Part shown: piece after piece, positions 1 through 21,595 of the stretch
Position numbering within the stretch: the first letter of the stretch is position 1
Layout: each line of letters starts with the position of its first letter
Assembly (NCBI RefSeq): GCF_014206975.1
Contig: NZ_JACHOU010000014.1
Span: 1 to 64,000 of the forward strand
DNA from: Aminobacter aganoensis
Lineage (GTDB): Bacteria > Pseudomonadota > Alphaproteobacteria > Rhizobiales > Rhizobiaceae
Reading direction: 5' to 3'
DNA: 64,000 nt
The notes under the pieces: generated by a model
Told to the model about the DNA's origin: nothing
Seen by the model: the letters and a program-made list of their open reading frames with translations, nothing else
Database searches by the model: none
Made by a program: the position numbers and the translations under genes

Positions 1-121
1 CCCCGCTCTCCACCACGACCTCGAAGCCAAGCCCGACAAGGCGTTTCACCGTCTCCGGCGAAGCCCCAACCCGGCTCTCAATCGCGTCAATCTCTTTCGA
101 TATGAAAATGGTTCCGGGCAT
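1..121 (-). CDS. pntA: NAD(P) transhydrogenase subunit alpha, N-terminal fragment (runs off the window)
   Basis: Reading leftwards from an ATG at 119-121, the frame stays open to the window edge (40 codons). It contains the motif ESRVGASPETVKRLVGLGFE followed by VVVESG. This is the typical start of the NAD-binding domain I subunit of proton-translocating transhydrogenase (and the related alanine dehydrogenase N-domain), where the Arg of the E-x-RVA/G-x-(S/T)P motif contacts nucleotide. A GGAGAG ribosome-binding site lies 5 bases upstream of the ATG. In that family the protein couples hydride transfer from NADH to NADP+ to proton flow at the inner membrane. Only the 5' end is visible, so alanine dehydrogenase cannot be fully excluded. 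Confidence 0.7.
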   Translation of the reverse strand, partial: MPGTIFISKEIDAIESRVGASPETVKRLVGLGFEVVVESG

Positions 122-247
122 CCGGGCTCTCCACGCAGAAGTTCGTCCGCCGGGACGCAATCCCGGCGGCGCTCAAGTCTTGCTTGCTGCTATTGGCATG
201 TTTGCAGATCGGCCGAACCGATGGGTGCGACCTGGAAGCGTCGCCCG

Positions 248-1048
248 CTAGTGGGCGACGAGGATGCCCTTGGCCTCGAAGATCGCGCGGATCTGGCGGA
301 CGTAGCCGTGATAATCCTTGTCTTCGTGGGTCTTGCTCCACTGCCGCGGACGCGGCAGGTCGATCTTCAGATCGAGATCGACGCGGCCGGGACGCGGCGA
401 CATCACCAGCACGCGGTCGGCCAGGAACACCGCCTCGTCGATACCGTGGGTGATGAACAGCACCGTATTGCCAAGCCTGAGCCACATCGACTGCAGGTCC
501 ATGATCATTTGCTCGCGGGTCAGCGCGTCGAGCGCGCCGAACGGCTCGTCCATCAACAGCAGGCCCGGCTCCTGGATCAGCGCCCGGCAGATCGCCACGC
601 GCTGGCGCATGCCGCCGGAAAGCTCGGAGGGATACTTGTTGCCGAAGCCTTCGAGCCCGACCTGGGCCAGCAGTTCCTCGGCGCGTGTCTTGTATTTGGC
701 AACGTCCAGCTTCTTGATCTCGATCGGCAGCAGGATGTTGTCGAGCACCGTGCGCCAGTAGAGCAAGAGGTCGGACTGGAACACGACACCGGTTTTCGGA
801 TGCGGCCTGCTGACGCCGTCGCCGTCGATGGCAATGCTGCCGGTAGAGGCGGGCGTCAGGCCGGCGAGAAGCGACAGCAGCGTGCTCTTGCCGCAACCGC
901 TCGGCCCGACGACGGCGACAAAGCTGCCTGGCTCGATCTTGAGGTCGATCTTGTCGAGCGCGAGGACGTCATCGTCCTCGCGTGTCTTGTAGATCTTGGA
1001 AAGCCGGGAAATGTCGACCGCCGCTCCAGTCTGGGTAGTGGCACTCAT
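248..1048 (-). CDS. ABC transporter ATP-binding protein, nitrate/sulfonate/taurine (SsuB/TauB) type
   Basis: This 266-residue ATPase powers the importer formed with the next two genes upstream. Walker A (GPSGCGKST) is at about residues 48-56, the signature LSGGMRQR at 143-150, Walker B with DEPFGALD at about 163-174, and the switch His in FITHGIDEA near 201. Length and motifs fit the SsuB/TauB/ThiY-associated ATPase family. It is the last gene of a three-gene operon ordered binding protein, permease, ATPase, with a gap of about 56 bases to the permease. The substrate is not readable from this subunit. The operon promoter carries a GntR-type operator shared with other catabolic genes in the window, which suggests uptake of that pathway's substrate. 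Confidence 0.93.
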   Translation of the reverse strand: MSATTQTGAAVDISRLSKIYKTREDDDVLALDKIDLKIEPGSFVAVVGPSGCGKSTLLSLLAGLTPASTGSIAIDGDGVSRPHPKTGVVFQSDLLLYWRTVLDNILLPIEIKKLDVAKYKTRAEELLAQVGLEGFGNKYPSELSGGMRQRVAICRALIQEPGLLLMDEPFGALDALTREQMIMDLQSMWLRLGNTVLFITHGIDEAVFLADRVLVMSPRPGRVDLDLKIDLPRPRQWSKTHEDKDYHGYVRQIRAIFEAKGILVAH

Positions 1049-1104
1049 GGGATTGCCTCACTGAACCTGTTTTAGATGTTGCCGGACCGTTTGAAGGGGC
1101 CGGG

Positions 1105-1938
1105 TTATTTGGCGGAGTCGCGCTTGTAGGTGACGCGTGCCTCGATGGTGTCGATGATGAAGTACAGCATCACGCCAAGTCCGGAGATCGCCACCACCGT
1201 GGCGAAATTGAGCGTCGTGTCGAATTGCGAGTTGGCCTGGAGCTGCAGGTAGCCAAGGCCGCGTTCGGCGGCGACATATTCGCCGATGACCGCACCGATG
1301 ACGGCGAGCGACACGGCAACCTTGAAGCCGCCGAAGATATTGGGCAGCGCTGCCGGCAGGCGCACCTTGAAGAAGGTCTGCCATTCTCCGGCACCCATCG
1401 AGCGGACGAGGTTGACCAGGTTCTTGTCCAGCGACTGCAGCCCGACCACGGTCGAGATGACGATCGGGAAGAACGAGATCAGGAAGGCCAGCGTGATCTT
1501 GGGCGCCCAGCCATAGCCGAGATAGAGCACCAGCAGCGGTGCCAGCGCCACCTTGGGCACCGTCTGCAGCGCCACGAGGATCGGATAGATGGCACGTTCG
1601 AAAGCCCTTGAATAGAAGATCGACAGCGCCAGGGGGATGCCGACCAGCACCCCCATGGCAAAGCCGACGACCACCTCAAAAAGCGTCACATAGCCATGCG
1701 TGGCGAGCAGTGGCAGTTCGTTGACGATCCGCGAGGCGATAGCCAGCGGGGTCGGCAGGACGAACTCCGACAGCCCCGACAGGGGAACCAGAATCTGCCA
1801 GGCGCCGAGCAGAACGATCGCGAGGATAAGAGCCGAATAACGCTCCAGCCAGGGTCCCCGCGATTTTTTCTTGCTGCTCATGTTGTTGCCTTGCTTTTTC
1901 TGCGCCTGACCGGCGCCGATTACATCCGTGCTCGCCAC
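1105..1938 (-). CDS. ABC transporter permease, SsuC/TauC-like
   Basis: An inner-membrane permease of 277 residues (258 if translation starts at the internal ATG at 1881). It has about six hydrophobic segments and a binding-protein-dependent transport domain with the EAA-type loop around SMGAGEWQTFFKVRLPAALP, where the ATPase docks. The longer form begins with GTG at 1938, eight bases after the stop of the binding-protein gene, and has a GAGG element. The ATG at 1881 (MSSKKK) has a weaker AAGG element, so the start is unresolved. It pairs with the flanking SBP and ATPase genes as a nitrate/sulfonate/pyrimidine-type importer. Confidence 0.92.
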   Translation of the reverse strand: MASTDVIGAGQAQKKQGNNMSSKKKSRGPWLERYSALILAIVLLGAWQILVPLSGLSEFVLPTPLAIASRIVNELPLLATHGYVTLFEVVVGFAMGVLVGIPLALSIFYSRAFERAIYPILVALQTVPKVALAPLLVLYLGYGWAPKITLAFLISFFPIVISTVVGLQSLDKNLVNLVRSMGAGEWQTFFKVRLPAALPNIFGGFKVAVSLAVIGAVIGEYVAAERGLGYLQLQANSQFDTTLNFATVVAISGLGVMLYFIIDTIEARVTYKRDSAK

Positions 1939-1945
1939 CGTAGCC

Positions 1946-2938: not shown

Positions 2939-3292
2939 TTCTCTCCTCCCTATCGAGCACCGCCTGGCGCCCCTATGACCCGAAGGCCTGCCTCTCTCCC
3001 CCGAACAAGGCGCGACAGCTCACGCTCTCGATCCTCATTCTTGATCTCATAGTGTGATCACATTTGATCTTTGTCAAGCGACGAATCCGGGTTCGCTTCT
3101 AACAAATGTCGAGTGCCCGCTTTGATGAACCGATCGCATTCGGCATCGCGCGCAAGCATCGGAAATCGCTTCGGGATTCGCCACGCGTCGCAGTGCCTCG
3201 ATCTTGCCGCGGCAAGGCAATGGACGCGCTTGCCTCAAGGCACGCACGAAGAATGGCGGATTGTGGATCGGGAGGCGACGACGTGCAGCGCG
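2939..3292. other. Intergenic region with operator A; remainder shows no gene
   Basis: These 354 bases separate the importer operon from the end of the CobW gene. The part nearest the importer holds the 19-bp operator at 3042-3060. From 3071 to 3292 several short frames are open on both strands. None has a convincing start, a recognisable motif or consistent codon use, so I see nothing codable there. Confidence 0.6.
3042..3060. promoter_or_regulatory. GntR-type operator, site A (importer promoter)
   Basis: The site reads TGATCTCATAGTGTGATCA, a perfect 5-9-5 inverted repeat (TGATC ... GATCA). It lies about 105 bases upstream of the binding-protein start. It matches sites at 5648, 12519 and 21196, with identical half-sites and spacing. 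The regulator is probably the FCD-type GntR protein encoded at 4787-5530, because site B lies in that gene's own promoter. Confidence 0.75.
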
Positions 3293-4273
3293 TCAGTGCA
3301 CGCCGGCAAAGGTACTCGGCAGCGAGCGTTCGATCGCGGCCCGGGCCAGGTTGCGGGCGATGAAGACCAGCCATCCACGCGGCATGCCCTCCGGCCAGCG
3401 TTCCAGATATTCGGGCGGATAGACGACGTGCTGAACGCCGTGGATGACCACCGGCCGCGCATCGCCCCTGACCGGGAGTAACCCCTTTACCCGCAGGATC
3501 GATTGCCCGCGACCGGCCAGCAGCAGCTCGAGCCAGTCGACGAAGGCCGGCCAGTCCACCTCGCGTGTCACTTCAACCGTAAAGGTCTCGATGCCGTCGC
3601 TGTGCTTGCCCGGCATCGGCGTGTCGGCCATCTCGAAGTGGCGCGGCTGCCAGGTCTCTTCGTGGTCGAAGATGTCGGCGGCACCAGGCATGCTCGCACG
3701 GCTGGAGACAAGCTGCCGGACCTGTGGATTGACCTTGCCGACTTCCTGGCCAAGCGCGTCGAGCCGCCAGGGCTCAACGAGATCCGATTTGGTGATGACG
3801 ACACAGTCGGCAAGCGCGACCTGCTGCATCGCTTCGGCGAAGCTGCCGATGCTGTTGGCGCCGCTGACGCCGTCGACGGTGGCAACGATGCTGCCCGCCC
3901 GATAGCCGCGGCGCAGTTGAAGGTCGCTCATCACCGCCTGCATGATCGGTGCGGGATCGGCGAGGCCCGTGGTCTCAACCACGACCCGGCGGAAAGGCGC
4001 CACCTCGCCGCGGCGAACCATCGCCAGAAGGTCCGCCAATGTGGAAACGAGATCGTCGCGCACAGCGCAACAGAGGCAGCCCGAAGACAGCAGTACGGCG
4101 TCCTCGGACACTTCCCGGACCAACAGGTGGTCGAGCCCGACTTCCCCGAACTCATTGATGATCACCGCCGTGTCGGCAAGATCCGGCTCGCCAAGCAGAT
4201 GCCTCAGAAAAGTCGTCTTGCCGCTTCCGAGAAAGCCGGTCAGCACGTGGACCGGAATTCTGTCATCAATCAT
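3293..4273 (-). CDS. CobW/HypB-family GTP-binding metallochaperone-like protein
   Basis: From the ATG at 4273 (MIDDRIPVHVL) this is a 326-residue COG0523 GTPase. The P-loop GFLGSGKT is at residues 13-20, the metal-binding CxCC motif (GCLCC) at 65-69, and a C-terminal CobW_C domain includes the IHGVQHVV segment. Family members deliver zinc or other metals to client enzymes using GTP. The frame extends upstream to 4354, but that would overlap the preceding RidA gene and adds non-family sequence, so the shorter start is preferred. The gene sits 20 bases after ridA and two genes after the GntR regulator. A plausible client is one of the metal-dependent amidohydrolases nearby, which is inference. 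Confidence 0.88.
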   Translation of the reverse strand: MIDDRIPVHVLTGFLGSGKTTFLRHLLGEPDLADTAVIINEFGEVGLDHLLVREVSEDAVLLSSGCLCCAVRDDLVSTLADLLAMVRRGEVAPFRRVVVETTGLADPAPIMQAVMSDLQLRRGYRAGSIVATVDGVSGANSIGSFAEAMQQVALADCVVITKSDLVEPWRLDALGQEVGKVNPQVRQLVSSRASMPGAADIFDHEETWQPRHFEMADTPMPGKHSDGIETFTVEVTREVDWPAFVDWLELLLAGRGQSILRVKGLLPVRGDARPVVIHGVQHVVYPPEYLERWPEGMPRGWLVFIARNLARAAIERSLPSTFAGVH

Positions 4274-4293
4274 GGAAGCGGCAGGCTGCACGG

Positions 4294-4761
4294 TCAGTTG
4301 ACCTCGAAGATGGCATCGATTTCGACCGGCACGTTGCGTGGCAGCGAATAACATCCGACGGCAGCGCGGGCGTGGCGACCCGCCTCGCCGAACACGTCGA
4401 CCATCAGGTCGGATGCGCCGTTGATGACCTTGGGGTGATCCTTGAAATCGGGCTCGGCGTTGACGAAGCCGCCAAGGCGAATGACCCCGACGACGCGGTC
4501 GAGGTCGCCATCGAGCGCCTGCTTGAGCTGGGCCAGGATGTTGACGGCGCAGAGCCGGGCGGCCGCCTGGCCTTCCTCGACCGTATAGTCGGAACCGAGC
4601 TTGCCGGTGTATTTGTCCTTGCCGGCTTCACTCGGCACCTGGCCGGAAACATAGACCTGGTTGCCAAGGCGGCGGGCCGGCACGTAGTTGGCGGCAGGCG
4701 CCACTGTTGCCGGCAGGCTAATGCCCAGTCGGGCGAGGTTTTGTTCAAATTTCCCCGCCAT
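4294..4761 (-). CDS. RidA/YjgF-family protein (enamine/imine deaminase-like)
   Basis: This 155-residue protein begins at the ATG at 4761 (MAGKFEQNLARLGI), with GGGAG upstream. The frame runs back to 4923, but that part overlaps the GntR gene and is not family-like. Motifs include YVSGQVP and the C-terminal RHARAAVGCYSLPRNVPVEI, which contains the conserved Arg of Rid proteins. RidA proteins hydrolyse reactive enamines and imines from PLP or amine-oxidising enzymes, and some relatives act as dedicated deaminases in ring-degradation pathways. Its position between the GntR regulator and cobW, under operator B, suggests a role in the regulated pathway rather than general housekeeping. Confidence 0.9.
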   Translation of the reverse strand: MAGKFEQNLARLGISLPATVAPAANYVPARRLGNQVYVSGQVPSEAGKDKYTGKLGSDYTVEEGQAAARLCAVNILAQLKQALDGDLDRVVGVIRLGGFVNAEPDFKDHPKVINGASDLMVDVFGEAGRHARAAVGCYSLPRNVPVEIDAIFEVN

Positions 4762-4786
4762 GGCGAGACACTCCCAGATCGAGATT

Positions 4787-5530
4787 TCAGTAGTCGAATT
4801 GCAGTTCCGGCCCCTGCGCGAAGGGCAGCTCGATGCCCTGCGAGCCGGCGACGCTGAGCAGCGCCTTGCAGGTGGTGCGGATGTCGTGGACGATGCCCTT
4901 CTTGGCAGCGGCGGCGTTTCCATCCTTCAGCGCGGCAAGAATGTCTTCGTGATCGGAAGCATTCCACGGCATGGATGGGATCAGCAGCGACATGTACATG
5001 GTCGGCCCGAATTGCAGCCACAGGGATTCGATCAGCGGCATCAGCACTTCGGAATCCGCGGCCTCGTAGACCGTGAAGTGGAATTTCTGGTTGTAGGATA
5101 GGCAGTTCAGGATATCTCGCTTGTCGATGGCCACCAGCAGTTGCTTGTTGATGGCGGTTAGCTGGCTGATGAGGGCCGGCGTCGCCTTTTTGGCGGCCAA
5201 CTCCGTTGCCATGCCTTCGAGCATCTCGCGCACGGCGAAAAGATCGCTGAGCTTTTCCGGCCCCAGTCGCGGCACGCGCACCGAACCACCCTTGGTCTCC
5301 TCCAGGGCGTTGGCGGCAACCAGCCGGCTCAGCACTTCGCGAACCGGCATCGGACTGGTGCCGAAACCAGCCGCCAGCTTGCGCAGGCTCATCACCTGGC
5401 CGGGCAGGAACGCACCCACCATGAGCCCGCGGCGCATGTAGCTCAGGACGTGCTCATGGACGTGACCGCGCGCAGGCTTGGCAGCATCCGCGCTGCCATT
5501 CTTGGCCGTTTCGGCCTTGTCTATCCGCAT
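4787..5530 (-). CDS. GntR-family transcriptional regulator, FCD (FadR) subfamily
   Basis: A 247-residue regulator. The N-terminal winged helix (about residues 25-90) contains the recognition segment SLRKLAAGFGTSPMPVREVLSRL. The C-terminal all-helical FCD domain (about 95-235) has the N/H ligand pattern of FCD proteins (YNQKFHFTVYEAA and SDHEDILAAL), suggesting metal-assisted binding of a carboxylate-containing effector. The ATG at 5530 has GGAGAAACGGA upstream. The promoter 118 bases upstream contains operator B, equally spaced from the divergent amidohydrolase gene, so autoregulation is likely. The same 19-mer occurs upstream of three other transcription units, which makes this the best candidate for a local master regulator, probably a repressor released by a pathway intermediate. 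Confidence 0.9.
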   Translation of the reverse strand: MRIDKAETAKNGSADAAKPARGHVHEHVLSYMRRGLMVGAFLPGQVMSLRKLAAGFGTSPMPVREVLSRLVAANALEETKGGSVRVPRLGPEKLSDLFAVREMLEGMATELAAKKATPALISQLTAINKQLLVAIDKRDILNCLSYNQKFHFTVYEAADSEVLMPLIESLWLQFGPTMYMSLLIPSMPWNASDHEDILAALKDGNAAAAKKGIVHDIRTTCKALLSVAGSQGIELPFAQGPELQFDY

Positions 5531-5647
5531 TCCGTTTCTCCGCCTCTCGCCAATGTCCTCAAGATGTGCGCTGTACGAGGAACGACGTCGCTACGGCTTG
5601 CCGCAACAAACGCCGGCCGGGGGCAGAAGTTGACAGCCCGCAATCTG

Positions 5648-5666
5648 TGATCTCATATTGTGATCA
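5648..5666. promoter_or_regulatory. GntR-type operator, site B (divergent gntR / amidohydrolase promoter)
   Basis: The site reads TGATCTCATATTGTGATCA, with perfect TGATC/GATCA half-sites around nine bases. It lies 118 bases from both the gntR start (5530) and the amidohydrolase start (5784), in the middle of a 253-base divergent promoter region. It differs from site A at a single central position. Location next to the regulator gene supports autoregulation. Confidence 0.75.
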
Positions 5667-5783
5667 TAAATGAGTTTCGCCTGAACGGCAACCTTTTTAC
5701 TGCCGTTTCGGCTAGGCGGCATTTTCTGCCAGACCGCCGCACAGCCCAAAAGCAACGCCAGCTAGAGTCGCAAAGGAAAATCG

Positions 5784-7154
5784 ATGGCCATGCCTGTGCA
5801 AGAACAAGCAATCCTGCGCGAGAAGATCGCTGCCGCCGCGGCGCGCGGGAGGTACGTGCTGCACAATGTGCGTCCCAACAATGCAGTCACAAGAACAGGT
5901 GCCATCGATACCGCCGGTGCCGAGTTCTTTCTCGCTGACGTGACTGTAGAGCACGGCAAGATATTGGCAATAACCCCAGCCGGCACGCCAACAGCTTTGC
6001 GAGAGGCCGAGGCTGCGCACATGGATTGCGCCGGTAGGATCGTCCTGCCTTGCTTCGTCGACTGCCATACCCACCTCGACAAGGGTCACATCCTTCCGCG
6101 CACCCCTGCAGCCGACGGCACGTTTGCCGGGGCGCTGGCAGCGACAAGAGGCGATCGCACGGCCCACTGGTCGGCTGACGATGTCGCCCGGCGCATGGAT
6201 TTCGCGCTGCGCTCCGCCTTCCACTACGGCACGTCGGCCATCCGCACGCATCTCGACTCCCAACCGCCGCAAGACACCATCTCCTGGCCAGTTTTCGAGG
6301 AGATCCGGCAACACTGGCGTGGCCGCATCGAATTGCAGGCAGCCTGCCTGTTCCCGATCGATTTTGCCCGCGACGAGACGTTCCTGAAGAGCATCGCGCA
6401 GCGTGTCGCCGCAGCTGGCGGCATCCTGGGCGCGGTCGCCTATCCGGCGCCCGATCTCGACGAGCTCCTCGAGCGCATGTTCGCGGCAGCCACCAGGCAC
6501 GGTCTCGATCTTGATTTCCACACCGACGAGACCGCCGATCCTTCGGTCGACGGCTTACGCCGCATCGCCGCGGCGGCGCTGCGCACGCGTTTTGCCGGAA
6601 AGGTGTTGGCCGGCCATTGCTGTTCCCTGGCGATGCATGACAGCGCGACGATCGACGCAACGCTTGACCAGGTTGCGGCGGCTGGCATCTCCGTGGTGTC
6701 GCTGCCGACCTGCAATCTCTATCTTCAGGACCGGCGGCATGACGGCACGACGCCAAAATGGCGTGGCGTCACGCTGCTGCACGAGATGAAGCGGCACGGC
6801 ATCCCGGTGGCACTGGCCTCCGACAACACGCGAGACCCGTTCCATTCCTATGGCGATCTCGACATGCTCGACACCTATCGTCTCGGCACCAGAGTCCTGC
6901 ATCTCGACCACCCGGTCGGTGACTGGCCGAGAGCCGTCTCAGCCACGCCGGCCGCGATGATGGGCCTTCCCGACAAGGGCACGATCGCGGAAGGACAGGA
7001 GGCCGATTTCATCTTGTTCGAGGGTCGGTCCTGGTCGGAAGTGCTGTCGCGGGGAGAAAGCAGCCGCATCGTCATTCGCGACGGCGCACCGATTTCGACG
7101 GCTCTGCCCTCCTACTCCGAGCTTGACGGGCTGGAAGGCCCTGCACACGATTGA
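5784..7154 (+). CDS. Amidohydrolase-superfamily enzyme, cytosine deaminase (CodA)-like
   Basis: A 456-residue metal-dependent hydrolase. The HxH motif of strand 1 is in FVDCHTHLDKGH (His95, His97). The later ligands appear in DFHTDE, in GHCCSLA and in ASDNTRDPF, where the Asp is the catalytic residue; the last two resemble CodA. CodA relatives deaminate cytosine, isoguanine, creatinine or related cyclic amidines. The ATG at 5784 follows AAGGAAAA. It is transcribed divergently from gntR through operator B and ends just before a strong bidirectional terminator. The true substrate is not certain. In the context of a hydantoinase and a cysteine hydrolase, a ring deaminase or cyclic-amide hydrolase role is likely. 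Confidence 0.85.
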   Translation: MAMPVQEQAILREKIAAAAARGRYVLHNVRPNNAVTRTGAIDTAGAEFFLADVTVEHGKILAITPAGTPTALREAEAAHMDCAGRIVLPCFVDCHTHLDKGHILPRTPAADGTFAGALAATRGDRTAHWSADDVARRMDFALRSAFHYGTSAIRTHLDSQPPQDTISWPVFEEIRQHWRGRIELQAACLFPIDFARDETFLKSIAQRVAAAGGILGAVAYPAPDLDELLERMFAAATRHGLDLDFHTDETADPSVDGLRRIAAAALRTRFAGKVLAGHCCSLAMHDSATIDATLDQVAAAGISVVSLPTCNLYLQDRRHDGTTPKWRGVTLLHEMKRHGIPVALASDNTRDPFHSYGDLDMLDTYRLGTRVLHLDHPVGDWPRAVSATPAAMMGLPDKGTIAEGQEADFILFEGRSWSEVLSRGESSRIVIRDGAPISTALPSYSELDGLEGPAHD

Positions 7155-8210: not shown

Positions 8211-8407
8211 CACTTGTGCTCCACCATGTCGATACCAAGCACGCCGCCGCGGCCCCAGCTGTCCTTGGGCGTCTCGTGGATCACCACGTGCAGGTGATCG
8301 GGCTTGCAGGCGGCCTCTTCGACCATGGCCTTGGTGATCGCTTTCACGAGGTTGCGCTTCTGCTCGACAGTGCGCCCCTCCCACATCTCGACGACGACGA
8401 ACGGCAT
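8210..8407 (-). CDS. 4-oxalocrotonate tautomerase-family protein
   Basis: A 65-residue protein starting MPFVVVEMWEGRTVEQK. The Pro immediately after Met would be the catalytic N-terminal proline after Met removal, and length and helix pattern match single-domain 4-OT tautomerases, which form hexamers. Such enzymes interconvert enol and keto forms of ring-cleavage products or act as hydratases or dehalogenases. The frame continues upstream to 8569, but this overlaps the neighbouring gene, and the ATG at 8407 gives the canonical Met-Pro start. Its stop overlaps the start of the next gene by one base. The substrate is presumably an intermediate of the operon's pathway. Confidence 0.88.
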   Translation of the reverse strand: MPFVVVEMWEGRTVEQKRNLVKAITKAMVEEAACKPDHLHVVIHETPKDSWGRGGVLGIDMVEHK

Positions 8408-12537: not shown

Positions 12538-12566
12538 CACTAGAAATTGTCAAGCGGAAGAATGCG

Positions 12567-13421: not shown

Positions 13422-15614
13422 TCAGCCGTGACAGCGCTTAGCCTTGAGCTCCAGCCTTCTCTTGTGGAGGACCGGTTCGGTGTAGCCGTTGGGTTGGGCG
13501 CGGCCTTCGAAGACGAGGTCGCAGGCGGCGCGGAAGGCGGTCGACTGGTCGAATTCGGGCGCCATCGGCCTGTAGAGCGGGTCGCCGACATTCTGGCGGT
13601 CGACGATGGCCGCCATGCGCTGCAGCGAATCCATCACCTGGATGTGCGAGCAGACGTCGTGGCGCAGCCAGTTGGCGATGTGCTGGGAGGAGATGCGCAG
13701 CGTGGCGCGGTCTTCCATCAGGCCGACGTCGTTGATGTCGGGCACCTTGGAGCAGCCGACGCCCTGGTCGATCCAGCGCACGACATAGCCCAGGATGCCC
13801 TGCGCGTTGTTGTCGAGCTCGCGCTGGATCTCGTCGGGTGTCCAGTTGGGGCGCACGACCACCGGCACCGACAGGATGTCGTCGAGCCGCGCCTTGGGGC
13901 GGGACTTGAGCTCTGCCTGAACGGCGTGCACGTCGACCTTGTGGTAGTGGGTGGCATGCAGCGTCGCTGCCGTCGGCGACGGCACCCAGGCGGTGTTGGC
14001 GCCGGCGCGTGGGTGGGCGATCTTCTGCTCCAGCATCGCCGCCATCAGATCCGGCATCGCCCACATGCCCTTGCCGATCTGGGCATGGCCCGACAGGCCG
14101 CATTCGAGGCCGGTGTCGACGTTCCAGGCCTCGTAGGCATTGATCCACGGCGCCTGCTTCATGTCGCCCTTGCGCACCATCGGGCCTGCTTCCATCGACG
14201 AATGGATCTCGTCGCCGGTGCGGTCGAGGAAGCCGGTGTTGATGAACACCACGCGTTCCTTGGCAGCACGGATGCACTCCTTGAGGTTGACGGTGGTACG
14301 CCGCTCCTCGTCCATGATGCCCATCTTGATGGTCTTGCGCGGCATGCCGACGAGGCGCTCGACGCGGTCGAAGATCTCGACGGCGAAGGCGACCTCCTCG
14401 GGGCCGTGCATCTTCGGCTTGACGACATACATCGAGCCTTTTCGCGAGTTGGCTTTGCGGCCGTTGGCGCCGACGTCGTGCAGGGCGATCAGCGCGGTGA
14501 TCGCCGCATCCATGATGCCCTCCGGCACCTCGTGGCCGTCGCGGTCATGGATCGCCGGGTTGGTCATCAGGTGGCCGACATTGCGCACCAGCATCAAGGA
14601 GCGGCCGGGCAGCGAGACAGCGCCGCCATCCGGGCCGGTGTATTCACGGTCGCCATTCAGCCTGCGCGTCACAGGCTTGCCGCCCTTGTCGAAGGTTTCC
14701 GACAGGTCGCCCTTCATCAGGCCGAGCCAGTTGCGGTAGACCACGACCTTGTCTTCGGCATCGACCGCGGCGACCGAATCCTCGCAATCCTGGATGGTGG
14801 TGAGCGCGGACTCGAGGATCATGTCGGAGATGCCGGCGGGATCGGTCTTGCCGATCGCACTGTCGCGGTCGACCACAACCTCGACATGCAGGCCGTTCCT
14901 GACCAGCACCACGGCATCGGGGCTGGCCGCCACGCCGCGGAAACCGGCGAACTGTTTTGGCTCGCGCAGCGCAACCGTGCCCGACGCGGTCGCAAGCTTC
15001 AGCGCGCCGCCTTCGACCGAAAGCCCGGTCACATCGCTCCAGCTGCCCTGGGCCAGCGGTGCGGACTCGTCCAGGAACGCCTTGGCCCAGGCGATCACCT
15101 TTTGGCCGCGCTTGGGGTTGTAGCCCTTGGTCTTCTCGGCGCCGTCGGCATCGGAAATCGCGTCGGTGCCGTAGAGCGCGTCGTAGAGCGAGCCCCAGCG
15201 GGCGTTCGCCGCGTTCAGCGCATACCGCGCGTTCATGACAGGCACCACCAGCTGCGGCCCGGCGACGGTGGCGATCTCGGGATCGACATTGTCGGTCGTC
15301 ACCGAAAACGCCGGGCCTTCAGGCACGAGATAACCGATCTCGCTCAGAAACGCCTTGTAGGCCGCCATGTCGTGCGGCGCGCCGTGCTTGCGGTACCAGG
15401 CGTCGAGCTTCAACTGGAAGTCGTCGCGCTTTTCCAGGAGCGCCCGGTTCTTCGGCCCGAGATCGTGCACGATGCCGGCAAACCCCTCCCAGAACGCATC
15501 CGCCGAAACACCCGTGCCGACCAGCGCCTCCGACACCACGAAGTCGTGCAACTCACGCGATATCGATAGGCCAAAGAGCGAAATCCTGTCGGTAACCCGG
15601 TTCATCATGTTCAT
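13422..15614 (-). CDS. glcB: Malate synthase G
   Basis: From the ATG at 15614 ([18 protein letters not shown]) this is a protein of about 730 residues, the usual length of the monomeric malate synthase G. Recognisable segments include [34 protein letters not shown], the catalytic-region [15 protein letters not shown], and the C-terminal [20 protein letters not shown]. The enzyme condenses glyoxylate with acetyl-CoA to malate in the cytoplasm. The longer frame up to 15731 overlaps the preceding dehydrogenase gene and is rejected. It follows that gene by 20 bases, so both are probably expressed from the promoter with the glycine riboswitch. This fits disposal of glyoxylate made from glycine. 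Confidence 0.97.
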
Positions 15615-15633
15615 CGTCCCAACTCCCCGGGGC

Positions 15634-16887
15634 TCAGGCCGCAATCGCGGCATCGGTGCGGAATTCGCCTGAAATGGTTTCGGCGACCATCTGGGCGGTG
15701 GCGGCCGACAGCGTCCAGCCGAGATGGCCATGGCCGGTGTTGTAGAAAACGCCCGGCTGCCGGCCCTTGCCGACCCTCGGCATCATGTTCGGCATCATCG
15801 GCCTGAGGCCGGCCCAAGGCACGACCCTGTTGGTGTCGACGCCGGGGAACAGCATGCGCGTCCAGTCGACCAGCGGCCTGACGCGGTCATCGCGGATGTC
15901 GCGGTTCATGCCATTGAACTCGGCGGTACCGGCAACGCGGAAACGCCCGGCACCGAGACGGCTGGTGACGATCTTGGCGCGGTCGTCGAGCAGGCTGACC
16001 CAGGGCGCCGCGTTCTGGCTGCGCTCGTCGTCGAGATGCACGGTGATCGAATAACCCTTGACTGGATAGACATTGACGCGGTCGCCCAGCATCGCCGCGA
16101 AATGCCGGCTTGCTGCACCAGCGCAGACGACGATGCCATCGGCCTCGACGATCCTGTCATCCCGCTGACCGTCGGCGCCGCCCGTCGTGTAGCCGATGCA
16201 GAACACGCCGTCGCGCGCGATACGATTGACCGTAGCGTCGAAAACGAGGCGCGCGCCGCGCCGCTCGCAGGCCTGGGCAAGGCCGTAGGTGAACTTGTGG
16301 ATGTCGCCGGTCGAATCCGACGGCGTGTAGAAGCCGCCGTGAAAATCGCCATGCAAGGCCGGTTCGATCGACTTCACTTCCGAAGCCGTCACCGGGCGCC
16401 GGTCGAGGCCGCCCTCGACCAGCATCGAATTGACCTTCAGCGCGTGCTGGAAGCTCGGCTTGTCCCAGTAGACATGCAAAATGCCGCGACGGACATGGTC
16501 GAAGTCGATGTTTTCCCGCTCGGCAATGGCAAACAGGTGCCTGCGCGCGGCAATTGCCAGACGCGTCGTCTCCACCGTGTTGTCGCGATAATTCATAATG
16601 TTGGAGACGAACTCGGCCAGCCAGGCATATTTGTGCCAGGTCGGGGCCGGGTTCATCAGCAGCGGCGCGTCGCTCCGCAGCATCCACTTCATACCCTTGA
16701 GCACGGTCGACCAGTGGTTCCAGACCTCGGCATTGCTGGCCGAAAGCTGGCCGCCATTGGCGAACGACGTCTCCATGCCGGCATAGCGCTGCCGGTCGAT
16801 GACGGTGACGGAGTAACCGCGCTCCAGGAGCGCGTAGGCGGTGGTGACGCCGGTGATACCGGCGCCGATAACGGCAATATGGGGCAC
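15634..16887 (-). CDS. D-amino-acid dehydrogenase (DadA)-like FAD oxidoreductase
   Basis: A DAO-family flavoenzyme of about 417 residues. The FAD motif [21 protein letters not shown] is split over the first strand and helix, [11 protein letters not shown] is the DadA signature, and the C-terminus has [14 protein letters not shown] and [12 protein letters not shown]. The likely start is GTG at 16887 with GGAGAG upstream. The ORF's first ATG at 16941 lies inside the riboswitch. DadA oxidises D-amino acids to 2-oxo acids, passing electrons to the respiratory chain. Behind a glycine riboswitch and in front of malate synthase, glycine oxidation to glyoxylate is the most coherent role. It could also serve D-alanine or sarcosine. 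Confidence 0.9.
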
Positions 16888-16939
16888 TTCACTCTCCGCG
16901 ATCAAAGTTGGGGGCGGGCCGCAGCCCGCTGTTTTCCCC

Positions 16940-17125
16940 AATCTGTCGCTGTACCTGAGAGCTTAACCGCGGCGTTCTTGCCGGCGCGGCTTTCCCCTTC
17001 GGTGGGCACTCGGGGTGCCTCTCTCCAGATCGTTCAGCTGCATGGTCACTTTTGCCTGAGAGTTTCCTGGGGGGTTGCTCCGTCGGCGCCGGCCGGACCC
17101 TTGGGTTCGGCCGATCTCTCCCATG
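16940..17125 (-). ncRNA. Tandem glycine riboswitch upstream of dadA-like and glcB
   Basis: Read on the minus strand, two aptamers follow each other. Aptamer 1 (about 17122-17045) runs from GGGAGAGATC through GACGGAGCAACC to AACTCTCAGGCAAAAGTGAC. Aptamer 2 (about 17035-16942) runs from CTGGAGAGAGGC through CACCGAAGGGG to AAGCTCTCAGGTACAGCGAC. These match the conserved GAGA, CCGAAGG/GACGGAG and CTCTCAGG core segments of glycine riboswitch aptamers. The element ends about 50 bases before the dadA-like start, so it would control translation or early termination of the dadA-glcB transcript in response to glycine, most likely turning it on. It explains most of the 308-base gap between the genes. 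Confidence 0.92.
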
Positions 17126-17195: not shown

Positions 17196-18635
17196 TCAAT
17201 TGCCCTCGTCGTAAAGCGTCGTGGTCGTCTCGACCCCGTGTTCATGCAGGCCGGCGCGGACCACCGCCGCGGCAGCCAGTTCGCGCGCCTTGCGGCGGAT
17301 GCCGGGCTCGTCGACGCCCTGCACCTTGCCGTCGGCATAAAGCACCTTGCCGTCGACCCAGGTCTGGGTGATCGAAGCGGTCGAAGCCGAAAACACCAGC
17401 GCCTGCAACGGATCGTAGAACGGGGTCCATTCGACATGGTCGAGATCGAACAGGATGAAGTCGGCTTTCTTGCCGATCTCCAGAGAGCCGATCTCGTCGT
17501 CCCACATCAGGGCGCGTGCGCCCTCGATGGTGGCGGCGCGCAACGCCTGGCGCGCGGTGAAGACGTCGGGCTGCATGCGGGCATCCTTGAACATGCCGGC
17601 GACGACAAGCATCTGCCGCATCAGGTTCATGTTGCCCGCGGCCGACACGCCGTCGGTGCCGAGGCCAACCTTGACGCCTGCCTTGACCATCTCGGGATAC
17701 TTGCCGATGGCTGTCGCGCCCTTGCCGAGCTTGAACGACGAGCACGGGCAGAAGGCGACGCTGGCGCCGCGTTCGGCCAAAAGCTTGACCTCCTCGTCCG
17801 ACACGGCCGCACCATGGGCGATGACCAGGTTCTTGCCGATGCCGCCGGCGCGGTCGATGCGGGTGATCGGCCAGCAGCCGTACTTGCTCTCGCAGACCTT
17901 GGCTTCCTCGATAGAGGTGGCGAGGTGATAGGTCGTACCGACGCCAAGCTTCTCGGCGAGCTTCACCGCGCCGACATGCAGCTCAAGGCTGCAGGGCTCC
18001 TTGCCCTCGATGTTGACCCAGCAACGGGCGCGTCCGTCGAGCGTGTTGTTGTAGCGCAGCACGTTCTCCTCGAGCACCTTCAGCGCCGACTGCGCGTCGG
18101 GGAAGAAGTGGTGCTCGGCCATCTCCTCGGTCCATCCGCGCGGCAGCTCGGCCGGGCGGTTGTCCGCAGCGTGGCGGCCGGTGATGCCGCGGATGCCGGT
18201 CTGGCCCATGGCGCGGATGACGATGCCGGGATCGTATTGCGAGCCCATGTCGAGGAAGCAGGTGGTGCCGCAACGGAGCATCTCGGTGATGCCGAGCAGC
18301 GCACCCCAATATTCGTCTTCCTCTGAAATGTGGGCGTAGAAAGGCTTGGCCCAGTGGAACACCCAGGCACGGGTGTTGAGATTGTCGGGGAAGACTGCAC
18401 GCGACAGGGTTTCGGACAGGTGGACATGGCTGTCGACGAAGCCCGGGCAGATGCCCAGCATGGTGCCGTCGATCACCTTGTCGAAGCTCTTGGCATCGTG
18501 ACGCGCCGCCACCTCCTCGGCCCCGCCGATATCGGCGATGCGGTCGTTTTCCACCACCATGCTGGCGTTGCGCAGCACGGTGTCGTTCTTGTCGACCGTG
18601 AAGGCGAAATTCAAATTCTCGATCAGCGTGCGCAT
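17196..18635 (-). CDS. Atz/Trz-family amidohydrolase (aminohydrolase/deaminase)
   Basis: A 479-residue enzyme of the chlorohydrolase/8-oxoguanine and S-adenosylhomocysteine deaminase group. The HxH motif is in FVDSHVHLSETL, further ligands in GTTYHLATSIEEAK and VIAHGAAVS, and the catalytic Asp in GLGTDGVSAAGNMNL. The start is the ATG at 18635 (MRTLIENLNFAF). These mononuclear-metal enzymes hydrolyse an amino or halogen group from purines, triazines or related rings. It lies 130 bases downstream of the creatinase-like M24 gene, perhaps in the same operator-D unit. A GC-rich hairpin (18678-18699) lies between. The substrate is not deducible. Confidence 0.88.
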   Translation of the reverse strand: MRTLIENLNFAFTVDKNDTVLRNASMVVENDRIADIGGAEEVAARHDAKSFDKVIDGTMLGICPGFVDSHVHLSETLSRAVFPDNLNTRAWVFHWAKPFYAHISEEDEYWGALLGITEMLRCGTTCFLDMGSQYDPGIVIRAMGQTGIRGITGRHAADNRPAELPRGWTEEMAEHHFFPDAQSALKVLEENVLRYNNTLDGRARCWVNIEGKEPCSLELHVGAVKLAEKLGVGTTYHLATSIEEAKVCESKYGCWPITRIDRAGGIGKNLVIAHGAAVSDEEVKLLAERGASVAFCPCSSFKLGKGATAIGKYPEMVKAGVKVGLGTDGVSAAGNMNLMRQMLVVAGMFKDARMQPDVFTARQALRAATIEGARALMWDDEIGSLEIGKKADFILFDLDHVEWTPFYDPLQALVFSASTASITQTWVDGKVLYADGKVQGVDEPGIRRKARELAAAAVVRAGLHEHGVETTTTLYDEGN

Positions 18636-18764
18636 GTGTCTCCACCCCATACTTCAGTCACGGACCTTCATTCTCGTCCCGCCGGTCCGTGACGGCGGGC
18701 GACATGTCGCTGTGCAGCCGGGCCACAAAGCACCCCGGCTGCCAATTTCACAAGCAGCGTTCGC

Positions 18765-19937
18765 TCAGGCGACCGCCTTGACCTTTCCGCCCTGCTTGGC
18801 GGTGCCGCAAAGGATCAGCTTGTCGGTGTCGGCATAGTCGGACAGAAGCTCCGAACCCTTCGACGTCACCAGAAGCATGTCCTTGTTCTGCATGCCGTAG
18901 CCGTAGCCGGTGTCGTAGCAAAGCGGCTCGAAGCCGAGCACCATGTTCTCCTCCAGCGGGGCGTCGCTGCCCGGCTTGCCGAGCACCGGCGTCAAGCCGA
19001 GATAGGGATCCTCATGCAGGTGCAGGCCGATGCCATGGCCGACGAACGAGATCGGCGGCAGGTTGAGCTTGGCGAGCTTGGCTATGAAGGCATCATAGAT
19101 TTCGCGGCAGCTGGCGCCCGGCTTCACCTTTTCCATGATCTCGTATTTGCACTCGACCAGGTGAGCCCAGATCTTGTCGGCCATGGGCGGCGCCTCGCCG
19201 ACGATGGCGGTGCGGCAGACGCCGGCCTGGTAGCCGTTGATGACCGAGAAGATCTCGACGCGGCAGACGTCGCCGCGTTTCAGGGTGCGTTCCGAGGGGC
19301 CGACATTGGGCAGCACGCTGCGCTCGCCGGTGGCGACGATCAGCAGCTTGAAGTGCTCGGCGCCGAGCGAATAGACGTTGCGGGTCAGATGGCCGGCAAT
19401 GTCCATTTCGGAGTCGCCGGCGTCGACAACGGCCAGCGTATCGGTGATCGCCTGGTCGGCGATGCGCGACAGCTTGCGCAGCAGGGCCACTTCCTCCGAC
19501 GTCTTGATCTGGCGCAGCCGCGCCAGGATCGGCTCGGCATGCTCGAAGCGCGCACCTGGCATCGCCGCGATCAGGCGGGCCAGATCGCCAGCCGGCAAAT
19601 AGTCCATTTCGAGGCCGATACGGGCCCCAGCTAAACCGAGTTCGGAAAGCTGGTCGGCAAGCACCAGCATCGGATCGTCGGAGAACTCGGCCCAGATGCG
19701 GGTCGCCACGTTTGGCTGCTTCCGCTTGATGGTCGACGCCTCCATGTCGACGCCGAAGATCGCGGTGCGGCCGTCAGCGGTGACGATGGTCATGGCATGG
19801 CGATGACGGATTAGCGGCTGCGACGGAACGACGAAGCCGGTGGTGTAGGCGAAATTTTCAGGCGACGAGCAGATCATGGCATCGAGCCCGTGCTCGGCCA
19901 TTGCCTTGACCTGCTTTGCGACGATTTCGGTCCGCAT
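18765..19937 (-). CDS. M24-family (creatinase/aminopeptidase P fold) protein with altered metal site
   Basis: A 390-residue pita-bread-fold protein with an N-terminal creatinase_N domain and C-terminal M24 domain. The start is ATG at 19937 with GGGGAGAACC upstream; the extension to a TTG at 19976 is unlikely. The usual two Asp ligands of metallo-M24 enzymes are replaced: the strand reads VCRVEIFSVINGYQAGVCRT rather than V-x-(I/V)-D-x-G...D-x-x-RT. The His (FVGHGIGLHLHEDP) and the first Glu (LGFEPLCYD) are kept. Loss of these Asp residues is typical of metal-independent creatinase-like members, so C-N amidine or amide hydrolysis is plausible. It follows the enolase-superfamily gene by 35 bases. 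Confidence 0.85.
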   Translation of the reverse strand: MRTEIVAKQVKAMAEHGLDAMICSSPENFAYTTGFVVPSQPLIRHRHAMTIVTADGRTAIFGVDMEASTIKRKQPNVATRIWAEFSDDPMLVLADQLSELGLAGARIGLEMDYLPAGDLARLIAAMPGARFEHAEPILARLRQIKTSEEVALLRKLSRIADQAITDTLAVVDAGDSEMDIAGHLTRNVYSLGAEHFKLLIVATGERSVLPNVGPSERTLKRGDVCRVEIFSVINGYQAGVCRTAIVGEAPPMADKIWAHLVECKYEIMEKVKPGASCREIYDAFIAKLAKLNLPPISFVGHGIGLHLHEDPYLGLTPVLGKPGSDAPLEENMVLGFEPLCYDTGYGYGMQNKDMLLVTSKGSELLSDYADTDKLILCGTAKQGGKVKAVA

Positions 19938-19972
19938 GTTGATGGTTCTCCCCTGGATGGCTGGCGTCAGGC

Positions 19973-21133
19973 TCAATCGCGGACGCGGTATTTTTCGATC
20001 TTCTTGATGTCGACGTCGATGCCCATGCCGGGCCCGGTCGGCACTGCGATGGCGCCTTCGGAGAAGCGCATCGGTTCGACCAGAAGGTCATCCTTGTAGT
20101 AGATGCCGCCGACCTGGCCGTGCTGCGCTTCGGCCGGCGTCGAGATCGGGATGACGCAGGACAACGTCACCGCCGGCGATGCTGCCGCCACCTGGACATT
20201 GGCGAGATTGCCGATGCCGGTCTCGATCGAACCGTTGACGTTGCAGATGATGCCGGCGGCGCGGCAGACAGCGCCAACCTCCATCGCCTTGTAGAGGCCG
20301 CCCGCCTTGGTGGTGTAGATCGAGACGATCTGCACCTGGCCGGCAGCGATGATCTGGATCGCATCATGGGCGTTCCACGCCGACTCGTCGGCCATGACAG
20401 GCGCATCGATACGGCGTGCTACCTCCGAGATGCGCTCGATGCCCATCACCGGCTGCTCGACATATTTGAGCCGGTACTTTTCCATCTGGCGAACCGTCTG
20501 CACCGCCTCGCCCGGAGTCTTGTAGCCCTCGTTGGCGTCGACGCAGATTTCCATCGCCTCGCCGGCAGCCTCGCGAACGGCAGCGACCATCTTGACGTCG
20601 CGTGCGGGGTCGACGCCGATCTTGACCTTGATCGTCTTGATGCCTTCCGCCACCAGCTTGGCCGCCTCGACCTTGGCCTCGTCGATCGAGATCAGGCCGA
20701 TCGAATGGGTGATACCGACCTTGTCTCGCGCCTTGCCGCCGAGCAGGGTATGGACCGGAACGTTCAGCCAGCGGCCAGTAAGATCGTAGGCGGCGAATTC
20801 GACTGCCGCCTTGGAATAGGGATAACCGCGGATGATGGCATCCATGCGGGCATGCAGTTCGGCGAAATTGCCGAGCTCCAGGCCGATGATCGCGGGCGCC
20901 AGGTAGGTTTCGATGACGCTGCGGGTGATCATGGCGGATTCGCCGAAGTAGCGGCCGAACTCACCGCCCCAGTCCTTGAGCGCCGGCGCCTCGCCCCAGC
21001 CGACCCGGCCGTCGCTGTCGGTCATCTTGACCATGACATAGCGGCCGATGACTTCGGTCAGGCCCGCCCACTTGTGCTCGCGCCGTGTCGGCAGTTGGAC
21101 AATCAGCGTTTCAATGGACTTGATCGTAGGCAA
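19973..21133 (-). CDS. Enolase-superfamily enzyme, muconate lactonizing (MLE) subgroup
   Basis: A 386-residue barrel enzyme with a complete MLE-type active site: Lys169-x-Lys171 (TIKVKIG), metal ligands Asp199 (CVDANEGY), Glu226 (YVEQPV) and Asp249 (MADES), and Lys276 (YTTKAGG). MLE-subgroup members abstract a proton next to a carboxylate and catalyse cycloisomerisation, racemisation (including N-acyl amino acids and dipeptides) or dehydration. The gene starts at 21133, downstream of operator D, and is followed by the creatinase-like gene. In a pathway with a hydantoinase, epimerisation of an N-substituted amino acid would make sense, but this is inference. Confidence 0.9.
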   Translation of the reverse strand: MPTIKSIETLIVQLPTRREHKWAGLTEVIGRYVMVKMTDSDGRVGWGEAPALKDWGGEFGRYFGESAMITRSVIETYLAPAIIGLELGNFAELHARMDAIIRGYPYSKAAVEFAAYDLTGRWLNVPVHTLLGGKARDKVGITHSIGLISIDEAKVEAAKLVAEGIKTIKVKIGVDPARDVKMVAAVREAAGEAMEICVDANEGYKTPGEAVQTVRQMEKYRLKYVEQPVMGIERISEVARRIDAPVMADESAWNAHDAIQIIAAGQVQIVSIYTTKAGGLYKAMEVGAVCRAAGIICNVNGSIETGIGNLANVQVAAASPAVTLSCVIPISTPAEAQHGQVGGIYYKDDLLVEPMRFSEGAIAVPTGPGMGIDVDIKKIEKYRVRD

Positions 21134-21182
21134 CGTTTTTCACCTTCTTCATTGTCACCGGCGATGCGTCGCGCTACATTTG

Positions 21183-21201
21183 CGATCATCTAGTGTGATC
21201 A
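21183..21201. promoter_or_regulatory. GntR-type operator, second overlapping site D2
   Basis: CGATCATCTAGTGTGATCA fits the 5-9-5 pattern with one mismatch in the left half-site (CGATC). It shares the central TGTGATCACA with the perfect site D that follows at 21196, so two regulator dimers could bind overlapping or opposite faces here. Confidence 0.55.
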
Positions 21202-21214
21202 CACTTTATGATCA
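21196..21214. promoter_or_regulatory. GntR-type operator, site D (divergent promoter)
   Basis: TGATCACACTTTATGATCA is identical over all 19 bases to site C. It lies between the divergent enolase-superfamily gene (starts 21133) and the small monooxygenase-like gene (starts 21299), 63 and 85 bases from their starts, so it can control both. Confidence 0.75.
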
Positions 21215-21298
21215 TAATTTTGGAGCGTCAAGCACCCAGCTGCAGCGAATTTTCCGGGGCATCGTCAACTCCGGAAATCGCCATCGAGAGGAGAACGC

Positions 21299-21595
21299 AT
21301 GATCGTCGAAGCAACCAACTACTTCGCCAGGGAAGGACAGGCGGCGGCCGTGCTGGAGCAGCGCCGCAAGGCGACCGAGATCAGGACGCAGATGGGACTC
21401 GATCCCGGCCGCATCCTCATCAGGATCGAGGGCGACGGACCTGACGTGCGCTGGGAATGCAGCTTTGCCTCGCGTGAGGCATATGACGCCGATATGGCGG
21501 CCAGGGGCGGTTCGCAAGCTTTCGCCGACGCCCGCAAGACCATGCACACGCTGCTCGAACGTTTCGAGCGCCATGTCTACCAGGGCGACGACTGA
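21299..21595 (+). CDS. Small ABM-like (antibiotic biosynthesis monooxygenase fold) protein
   Basis: A 98-residue protein (MIVEATNYFAREGQAAAVLEQRRK...). The pattern of a first strand, a helix with charged residues, then CSFASREAYDADMAAR and a final helix resembles the dimeric alpha-beta ABM/NIPSNAP ferredoxin-like fold. No catalytic residue can be assigned. It begins with ATG after GAGAGGAGAACGC and is divergent from the enolase-superfamily gene across operators D and D2, so it is probably co-induced with the pathway. It could be a cofactor-less monooxygenase, a tautomerase-like helper or a dehydratase. Confidence 0.6.
   Translation: MIVEATNYFAREGQAAAVLEQRRKATEIRTQMGLDPGRILIRIEGDGPDVRWECSFASREAYDADMAARGGSQAFADARKTMHTLLERFERHVYQGDD

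Follow-up and report, generated by a model that had tools for sequence, protein, structure and literature searches.

What do the enzymes encoded at the very start of contig NZ_JACHOU010000014.1 of Aminobacter aganoensis act upon, and do they belong to a single system? The window (the whole stretch of 64,000 nucleotides analysed here) opens contig 14 in a genome of 5.76 Mb, its first position being at the contig end; 20 genes lie between its positions 248 and 21595. An earlier note had proposed that these genes, under a shared operator, form one catabolic system for a cyclic amide or N-heterocycle, in which deaminase, hydantoinase and carbamoyl-type hydrolase would mirror the route from creatinine via N-methylhydantoin to N-carbamoylsarcosine. 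As far as the sequence can tell, the idea of a single co-regulated catabolic system for such a compound is supported and the creatinine mirror is not. In short, the best explanation, which we consider probable but far from certain, is one repressor-controlled catabolic regulon for an N-heterocycle.

Proteins were assigned by scans with hidden Markov models (HMMs) from Pfam and NCBIfam, and genes lie on the minus strand unless otherwise stated. The enzymes listed in the earlier note were all recovered, the label of the PhyH-like protein being the weak exception; its list must be extended with RidA, a CobW-type GTPase, an ATZ-like amidohydrolase, DadA, malate synthase G, an HbpS-like protein and a local GntR/FCD regulator. 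Operator 1 (3036-3068) lies upstream of an importer of the ATP-binding cassette (ABC) type (248-2938), complete with an NMT1-type substrate-binding protein (1946-2938; NMT1 4.1e-32), a permease (1105-1938; BPD_transp_1 8.6e-35) and an ATPase (248-1048; ABC_tran 1.7e-33). On the other side of this operator lie genes for: (i) a CobW/COG0523 GTPase, possibly a metal chaperone (3293-4291, with an inferred start within the longest open reading frame, 3293-4354; cobW 1.9e-41); (ii) a RidA/YjgF-type protein (4294-4770, start likewise inferred; YjgF_endoribonc 4.9e-33 on the longer reading frame); and (iii) the GntR/FCD regulator (4787-5530; FCD 7.9e-22, GntR 1.9e-11). Operator 2 (5642-5674) separates the latter from the CodA-like deaminase (5784-7154, plus strand), which passes the model of the cytosine deaminase family PRK07583 with 602 bits (cut-off 403).

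Operator 3 (12513-12545) is upstream of an operon that encodes an opine dehydrogenase of the CENDH type (11316-12404; Octopine_DH 3.8e-37), a DpsA/DpaA-like NAD(P) dehydrogenase (10429-11319; DpaA_N 1.8e-19), a complete hydantoinase/allantoinase-type cyclic amidohydrolase (9089-10438, start inferred), the PhyH-like protein (8409-9092), a 4-oxalocrotonate tautomerase-type protein (4-OT; 8210-8398; Tautomerase 2.8e-16) and a cysteine hydrolase of the isochorismatase type, presumably an amidase, fused to a VOC domain (7221-8210). Operator 4 (21177-21214), with three boxes at 21184-21214, lies between the genes for an MLE-type enolase-superfamily enzyme (19973-21133) and, divergent from it, a 98-aa protein (21299-21595, plus strand) with no HMM match and no assigned family; beyond the MLE gene come a creatinase-like M24 hydrolase (18765-19976) and a TRZ/ATZ-type amidohydrolase (17196-18650; Amidohydro_1 6e-55). 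Three accessory genes lie between these and operator 3: DadA-type D-amino acid dehydrogenase (15634-16941; 728 bits, cut-off 494), malate synthase G (13422-15617; 1281 bits, cut-off 565) and the HbpS/GlcG-like protein (12567-12998; HbpS-like 2.5e-29).

The operator common to four intergenic regions, on which the proposal was built, is confirmed. A repeat finder returned four copies of a 33-nt repeat, one per intergenic region, and their common core, GATC-N8-TGATCA, is exact in each of them: at 3043-3060 (GATCTCATAGTGTGATCA), 5649-5666, 12519-12537 and 21184-21214. The core amounts to TGATC boxes spaced 13 bp. With one mismatch allowed it has 16 matches in the window, 12 of which fall within the four regions (some of these 12 being a single site read on both strands), against a mean of 5.87 and a maximum of 15 in shuffled sequences. 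A promoter scan gave seven sigma-70-like matches in the window (shuffles: mean 3.2, standard deviation 2.1). Three of the seven overlap operator sites, namely those at 5649 (match at 5630-5659), 12519 (12553-12526) and 21184 (21231-21203), and are oriented towards the CodA-like, opine dehydrogenase and MLE genes, respectively; this overlap is the geometry of repressor sites. No sigma-70-like match was found at the operator at 3043. By its position and conservation, the GntR/FCD protein is presumed to be the repressor that acts at these operators.

Does the gene set persist as a unit in other bacteria? One genome per species was scanned by hydantoinase alignment; 380 relatives were confirmed and the best 80 kept, of which 67 at 63-99% identity (L097 and L108 partial) were taken as orthologous loci and 13 at 41% or less as controls. 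Member identity thresholds were set after the data had been seen, and many loci are truncated at a contig end or by the 10-kb flank; in consequence, the counts over the 67 loci are lower bounds. DpsA was found in 63 of them, opine dehydrogenase in 60, isochorismatase-VOC in 58, 4-OT in 56, the ATZ-like enzyme in 49, MLE in 44, the PhyH-like protein in 42, M24 in 41 and the CodA-like deaminase in 38. Permease and ATPase (the latter at 50% identity or more) occur in 36 loci each, binding protein, GntR and CobW in 35 each and RidA in 28; less constant are the 98-aa protein (14), DadA (12), HbpS (9), pntA (7) and malate synthase (6). Hydantoinase, DpsA, opine dehydrogenase, isochorismatase-VOC and 4-OT all stand together in 54 of the 67 loci and in none of the 13 controls. 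Hence, the neighbourhoods, whose failure to co-occur elsewhere would in the earlier note have spoken against the system, do recur. At these thresholds the controls lack every member except GntR (six), MLE (one) and CobW (one); below them, an opine dehydrogenase-like protein is present in L100 (29%) and an isochorismatase in L101 (31%).

The unit spans Alpha- and Betaproteobacteria (Pseudomonadota) and Actinobacteria (Actinomycetota). In a comparison that took in the window and 59 of the orthologous loci (L042-L099 and L102), the identity matrices of eight members track that of the hydantoinase (r 0.69-0.89, 32-57 sequences each), none of 999 permutations giving values as high. Only the importer, hydantoinase, PhyH-like protein and isochorismatase-VOC are present in the 21 kb of locus L065, and likewise on the short contig of L067; such minimal sets suggest that these members act in sequence. 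A DpsA protein search among plasmids gave 14 records at 91.8-97.6% identity (Aminobacter 10, Shinella 3, Phyllobacterium 1). In the five plasmid regions that were opened the core gene order is identical, and in all five transhydrogenase genes lie 3' of the importer ATPase, where the contig studied here ends. DadA, malate synthase and HbpS are absent from the two opened Shinella copies; on the Phyllobacterium zundukense plasmid (L018:10468-13730) DadA, malate synthase G and HbpS are fragmented and unannotated while the core is intact. This module is therefore dispensable. The spread is patchy: with the genome under study counted in both cases, three of the 61 genomes scanned in the family carry the hydantoinase, and eight of the 297 in the order have a match to DpsA, four at 49% or more and four at 32-34%. 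Around three of the homologues at about 33% (G139, G190 and G030, 25-28 kb each; G073 was not included), nothing of the cluster besides DpsA was found except an ATPase at 29-30%. As a separate observation, the Thaumarchaeota metagenome-assembled genome (MAG) locus L100 has a hydantoinase at 39%, an MLE homologue at 46% and, nearby, the opine dehydrogenase-like protein mentioned above; this locus may represent a relative of the system in archaea.

The operator accompanies the regulator gene. Among the 35 loci with GntR, the looser operator pattern is found in 34 and the stricter one (GATCWYNNNNTGTGATCA) in 33; among the 32 loci without it, an operator occurs in four (L068, L069, L072 and L102). 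L068 has its GntR gene further along the same contig, and the contigs of the remaining three measure 9-13 kb. The operator is absent from all 13 controls. The stricter pattern was also sought in 37 hydantoinase-bearing genome entries (two pairs are identical, leaving 35 distinct), and it is present in 15 of 15 and in 20 of 22 entries, with 60 and 87 matches, respectively; it is missing from G361 and from the genome to which L065 belongs. A reversed control pattern had no match in any of the 37.

Matches away from the cluster contig are of several kinds. In the first 15 entries they number two of 60: one precedes a binding protein-permease-ATPase-pntA set, that is, a missing piece of the cluster, and the other, in Cucumibacter, precedes an operon with TctCBA, a split thiamine pyrophosphate (TPP) enzyme and a CodA-like gene. 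Other off-contig matches also mark cluster pieces, namely MLE operons (G381 C6, G382 C61 and G357 C1) and importer operons (G308 C4 and G385 C61). Those in A. niigataensis G381 at C2 (two) and C8, and in G357 at C6, are apparently due to chance, there being no cluster homologue there; the reading frames tested at these sites encode a lactamase fold, DUF2165, a pseudouridine synthase, a TPR protein and some proteins without a Pfam match. In the own genome of the cluster, the looser pattern has 21 matches, seven in the cluster and 14 elsewhere; neighbourhoods were read for two of the 14, C26:47782 and C13:23536, and not for the other 12. The match at C13:23536, which fits the stricter pattern too, is an apparent chance match, with no cluster homologue in the 13 kb read there.

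The match at C26:47782 is a fifth operator, GATCTCAGTATGTGATCA. It precedes the gene for a binding protein 60% identical to that of the window, downstream of which are encoded the FAD, 2Fe-2S and molybdenum (Mo) subunits of an enzyme of the xanthine dehydrogenase/CO dehydrogenase type. This enzyme reaches no NCBIfam cut-off, the models that score best being those of CO and glyceraldehyde dehydrogenases. Six more family matches exist in the genome. Relatives of its subunits adjoin the cluster in four of the 67 loci: L061 (Mo subunit, 54%), L063 and L090 (36-37%) and L102 (FAD subunit, 46%). If it is a heterocycle hydroxylase, it argues for an aromatic N-heterocycle; since the Mo-hydroxylase family also includes aldehyde and CO dehydrogenases, this is a mere hint. 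On the same C26, a second NMT1 binding-protein paralogue (L123:16396-17460; 51%) has no exact operator match beside it. Elsewhere, on a plasmid of Variovorax sp. SRS16 (L158), a Mo-family enzyme about 50% identical has binding proteins, an ABC importer and a pair of HyuA and HyuB in its vicinity; none of the distinctive genes of the cluster occurs in the annotated stretch around it, and perhaps that region represents another heterocycle pathway.

Further paralogues of the binding protein stand behind the operator in two Bradyrhizobium genomes, in a Xanthobacteraceae MAG and in the Hyphomicrobiales MAG PRO1, and the MSH1 plasmid has an extra binding protein and an amidase within the cluster, also behind the operator; in view of these extra binding proteins, the importer probably serves several related compounds. 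As regards the end products, homologues of the split TPP enzyme (52-64%) adjoin the cluster in L068, L070, L071 and L099, and Arthrobacter sp. 35W has genes for a two-subunit E1 2-oxo acid dehydrogenase, SDRs and another GntR/FCD protein nearby. The TPP-enzyme operon and the E1 genes make it probable that a 2-oxo acid is among the end products.

What chemistry do the enzymes suggest? The ring-opening- and decarbamoylating-type enzymes retain their catalytic residues, which supports a system for a cyclic amide or N-heterocycle; here, as for the opine dehydrogenase and the other members, the roles of aligned residues are assumed from family knowledge. Enzymes of the hydantoinase fold catalyse the opening of imide or ureide rings. 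The one in the window is of the Amidohydro_1 type, and its metal centre (HxH, carboxylated Lys, H, H, D) and Tyr are kept in 60 of 60 aligned sequences, its own included. It scores below the NCBIfam cut-offs for D-hydantoinase (279 bits, cut-off 393), allantoinase AllB (277, cut-off 358), PRK06189 (293, cut-off 631) and ErtD (212, cut-off 600), and the next hydantoinases in the list after its orthologues are at most 41% identical; it would hence represent a new subfamily. Enzymes resembling RutB and biuret hydrolase take off carbamoyl-type amides. In the fusion protein, D/K/C of the isochorismatase domain and H/H/E of the VOC domain are kept in 52 of 52 aligned sequences, and the best PDB matches of the former are 6xix, a "cysteine hydrolase" which we take to be triuret hydrolase (3.7e-19), and RutB (2.1e-18); 3eef, a "related protein" of N-carbamoylsarcosine amidase, follows at 1.1e-13, and that amidase itself (1nba) stands at the end of the list with 5.2e-7. 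The HxxE motif of the CodA-like enzyme is present in 32 of 32 aligned sequences, distant CodA-like proteins included.

Enzymes of the CENDH type convert an N-(1-carboxyalkyl) amino acid reversibly into an amino acid plus a 2-oxo acid. CENDH (1bg6) is the nearest solved structure to the opine dehydrogenase; the fold and the His/Arg/Asp positions, kept in 54 of 54 sequences, are alike, while the sequence match is partial (E 1.8e-53) and the enzyme stands here within a heterocycle regulon. The substrate of DpaA is a six-membered cyclic imine with an adjacent carboxylate; the DpsA/DpaA-like enzyme is not dipicolinate synthase A by score (175 bits, cut-off 320, and 195 bits, cut-off 261, the latter for PRK08306), and no DpaB-like gene was found among the scanned cluster genes. 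The MLE catalytic set (KxK, D, E, D, K, E) is kept in 41 of 41 sequences.

Two hydrolases have altered catalytic residues. In the ATZ-like enzyme the metal ligands are kept in 46 of 46 sequences, and the position of the deaminase Glu (HxxE), present in all three aligned relatives of solved structure, is Thr in 39 and Ser in seven. In the M24 enzyme, 38 of 42 sequences, that of the window included, have E/G/H/E/K instead of the D/D/H/E/E metal ligands; the other four (L074, L075, L085 and L098), 31-35% identical to it, have D/D/H/E/E. Creatinase likewise has no metal ligands. By score, the M24 enzyme is not the ectoine hydrolase DoeA (88 bits, cut-off 613).

The PhyH-like label stands only in part. 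The protein has no Pfam or NCBIfam match; its structural model (predicted local distance difference test score, pLDDT, 87.7) has no match in the PDB at E of 0.001 or less, and the best seven matches are PhyH-type oxygenases (E 5e-3 to 2.8e-2, probability 0.90-0.98, template modelling score 0.34-0.43). Among the invariant columns of 21 sequences there is no HxD and one His, where the PhyH iron site would be HxD...H; a degenerate PhyH-like fold is the description that these weak matches allow. Plasmid annotation calls it a "resolvase" (L017:17231-17914, with equivalents in L018, L019 and L021), a label for which nothing was found in support.

From gene content, conservation as a unit, operators and motifs, we infer every reaction of the following scheme, their order and the class of substrate. 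The GntR/FCD protein would sit on the TGATC boxes before the four units until an inducer relieves repression, and the NMT1-type importer, with several binding proteins in some strains, would take up the N-heterocycle. Its ring could be hydroxylated by the Mo-hydroxylase family in some strains and deaminated by the CodA-like enzyme; the cyclic amidohydrolase would then open an imide or ureide bond and the isochorismatase domain would remove the carbamoyl group. RidA and 4-OT may handle enamine or enol intermediates. Finally, the opine dehydrogenase, together with DpsA, would cleave a secondary-amine diacid by oxidation; the products would be an amino acid and a 2-oxo acid, and the latter would go to the TPP enzyme or dehydrogenase or, as glyoxylate, to malate synthase.

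As for the substrate, a compound of the 2-aminoimidazolone/hydantoin type is put forward tentatively, and no single class rates higher. A fused pyrimidine, for instance a pterin, is distinctly less likely. In that case, the Mo hydroxylase and the deaminase would yield a dione; the hydantoinase would open the pyrimidinedione and the RutB-like domain decarbamoylate the product; DpsA and lactam-type hydrolases would dismantle a pyrazine-carboxylate-like ring; the opine dehydrogenase would split an imino diacid into glyoxylate or another 2-oxo acid and an amino acid; and the ATZ-like protein without the deaminase Glu would bring a new kind of amidohydrolase chemistry. With the same low likelihood as the fused pyrimidine, the cluster would be the first genetically defined total breakdown of a pterin-type fused pyrimidine or of a 2-aminoimidazole relative. 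Some other candidates were discarded. Ergothioneine, whose utilisation involves the hydantoin-5-propionate amidohydrolase ErtD of the same hydantoinase superfamily, is ruled out by the ErtD score given above; the thiamine pyrimidine was set aside by reasoning, as acetamido rather than ureido intermediates would be expected; and for purines via the uricase route no such genes were found among those scanned. Advanced glycation hydroimidazolones were considered too; no relevant literature was found among the items listed, and nothing speaks for or against them.

A creatinine/N-methylhydantoin route with additions, in which CodA-like enzyme and hydantoinase act in turn, the isochorismatase frees sarcosine and DadA and malate synthase dispose of it, is improbable. 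The locus does share with creatinine/N-methylhydantoin clusters (creatinine deaminase, ATP-dependent HyuA/HyuB and N-carbamoylsarcosine amidase) the logic of deaminating, opening a hydantoin ring and decarbamoylating, as well as an M24 enzyme without metal ligands in the manner of creatinase. The route may also draw on the hydantoinase, DadA and malate synthase G, on a CodA-like enzyme that keeps HxxE, although the family whose model it passes is that of cytosine deaminase, and on an amidase of the carbamoyl-type fold, with 3eef among its weaker matches. Described creatinine clusters, according to PMC8864220, carry creatininase and a HyuA/HyuB pair; here a cyclic amidohydrolase takes the place of the latter, and neither creatininase nor HyuA/HyuB was found among the scanned cluster proteins, the rest of the genome not having been searched. 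The far better match to 6xix than to 1nba, as well as the low counts of DadA and malate synthase, point the same way. Furthermore, the core of opine dehydrogenase, DpsA, 4-OT and MLE is left unexplained by this route, and the first three are more constant (60, 63 and 56 loci) than the CodA-like gene (38). That the locus makes an opine or a compound resembling dipicolinate, as opine dehydrogenase and DpaA-like enzyme might suggest, is the least probable explanation: importer, amidohydrolase-type enzymes, repressor-type operators and enzymes for 2-oxo acid disposal suit breakdown, and the DpaB-like partner is missing among the scanned genes. Hardly more probable is the removal of a man-made heterocycle, or mere nitrogen scavenging, by a recent assembly on catabolic plasmids. 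The 14 plasmid records, some of them from polluted sites, would fit; the deep divergence of the hydantoinase (63-99%), with much of the set retained, argues instead for an old natural substrate.

The most serious rival, although itself rather unlikely, is that two or more unrelated modules (ureide; MLE-M24-ATZ; opine) share one regulator by chance. Gene order is reshuffled among lineages, the presence of DadA/malate synthase and of CodA varies, L065 and L067 hold a partial set, and the regulon further takes in several binding proteins and a transporter of the tricarboxylate type. Yet the distances between members correlate, and much of the set stays together in Actinobacteria without this GntR orthologue or operator, one of them having another GntR/FCD gene nearby. 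A single catabolic regulon for an N-heterocycle has its own difficulties: the CodA-like gene was not found in 29 of the 67 loci as fetched, and the CodA-like proteins of distant clusters, about 24-36% identical to that of the window, may consequently have a different substrate; an Opitutales MAG locus (L073) has hydantoinase, ATZ-like enzyme and M24 only, within 21 kb; gene order varies between lineages; and host kinship contributes part of the identity correlations. The ATZ-like enzyme has, by its alignment, lost the deaminase Glu, which leaves its step unassigned, and MLE, M24, PhyH-like and VOC parts are given no step in the scheme. The proximity of the Mo enzyme to some clusters may be chance, given its sub-cut-off scores and the six further family matches. 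Several distinct substrates under one regulator would also give the same picture.

Among other known systems, the Rut uracil pathway also combines a RutB-like isochorismatase fold with a RidA/RutC-type protein; it differs in that ring opening is of the hydantoinase type here, no RutA monooxygenase was found among the scanned genes and the RutB model gives 80 bits (cut-off 378). The Hyu hydantoin clusters have in common with the cluster a hydantoinase-fold enzyme in Aminobacter: the dihydropyrimidinases described there have 483-485 aa and resemble a Sinorhizobium enzyme, and in one strain the gene is next to ABC genes (PMC3546935). The words opine, isochorismatase and NMT1 do not occur in the text of that paper, and the two systems are set apart by description, not by sequence. 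A description of the cluster was not found in the open full-text literature searched; since subscription papers lie mostly outside it, absence from print is unproven.

A gene set conserved across distant lineages and on plasmids implies a common environmental N-heterocycle. Should the regulon be as proposed, the repressor and its 18-bp operator would provide a ready biosensor, and the cluster would add a new hydantoinase subfamily, couple a hydantoinase to an opine dehydrogenase and contribute two hydrolase subfamilies whose catalytic residues are changed.

Two minor features remain. Between the malate synthase and HbpS-like genes, an inverted repeat with C/G-rich arms of 36 nt (13078-13241) resembles a dispersed palindromic element. 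Adjoining the cluster, a sugar-acid locus (24001-35413) encodes a glycoside hydrolase 88, KduI, KduD, a sugar ABC importer and LacI, and has copies about 80% identical on Shinella, Rhizobium and Phyllobacterium plasmids.

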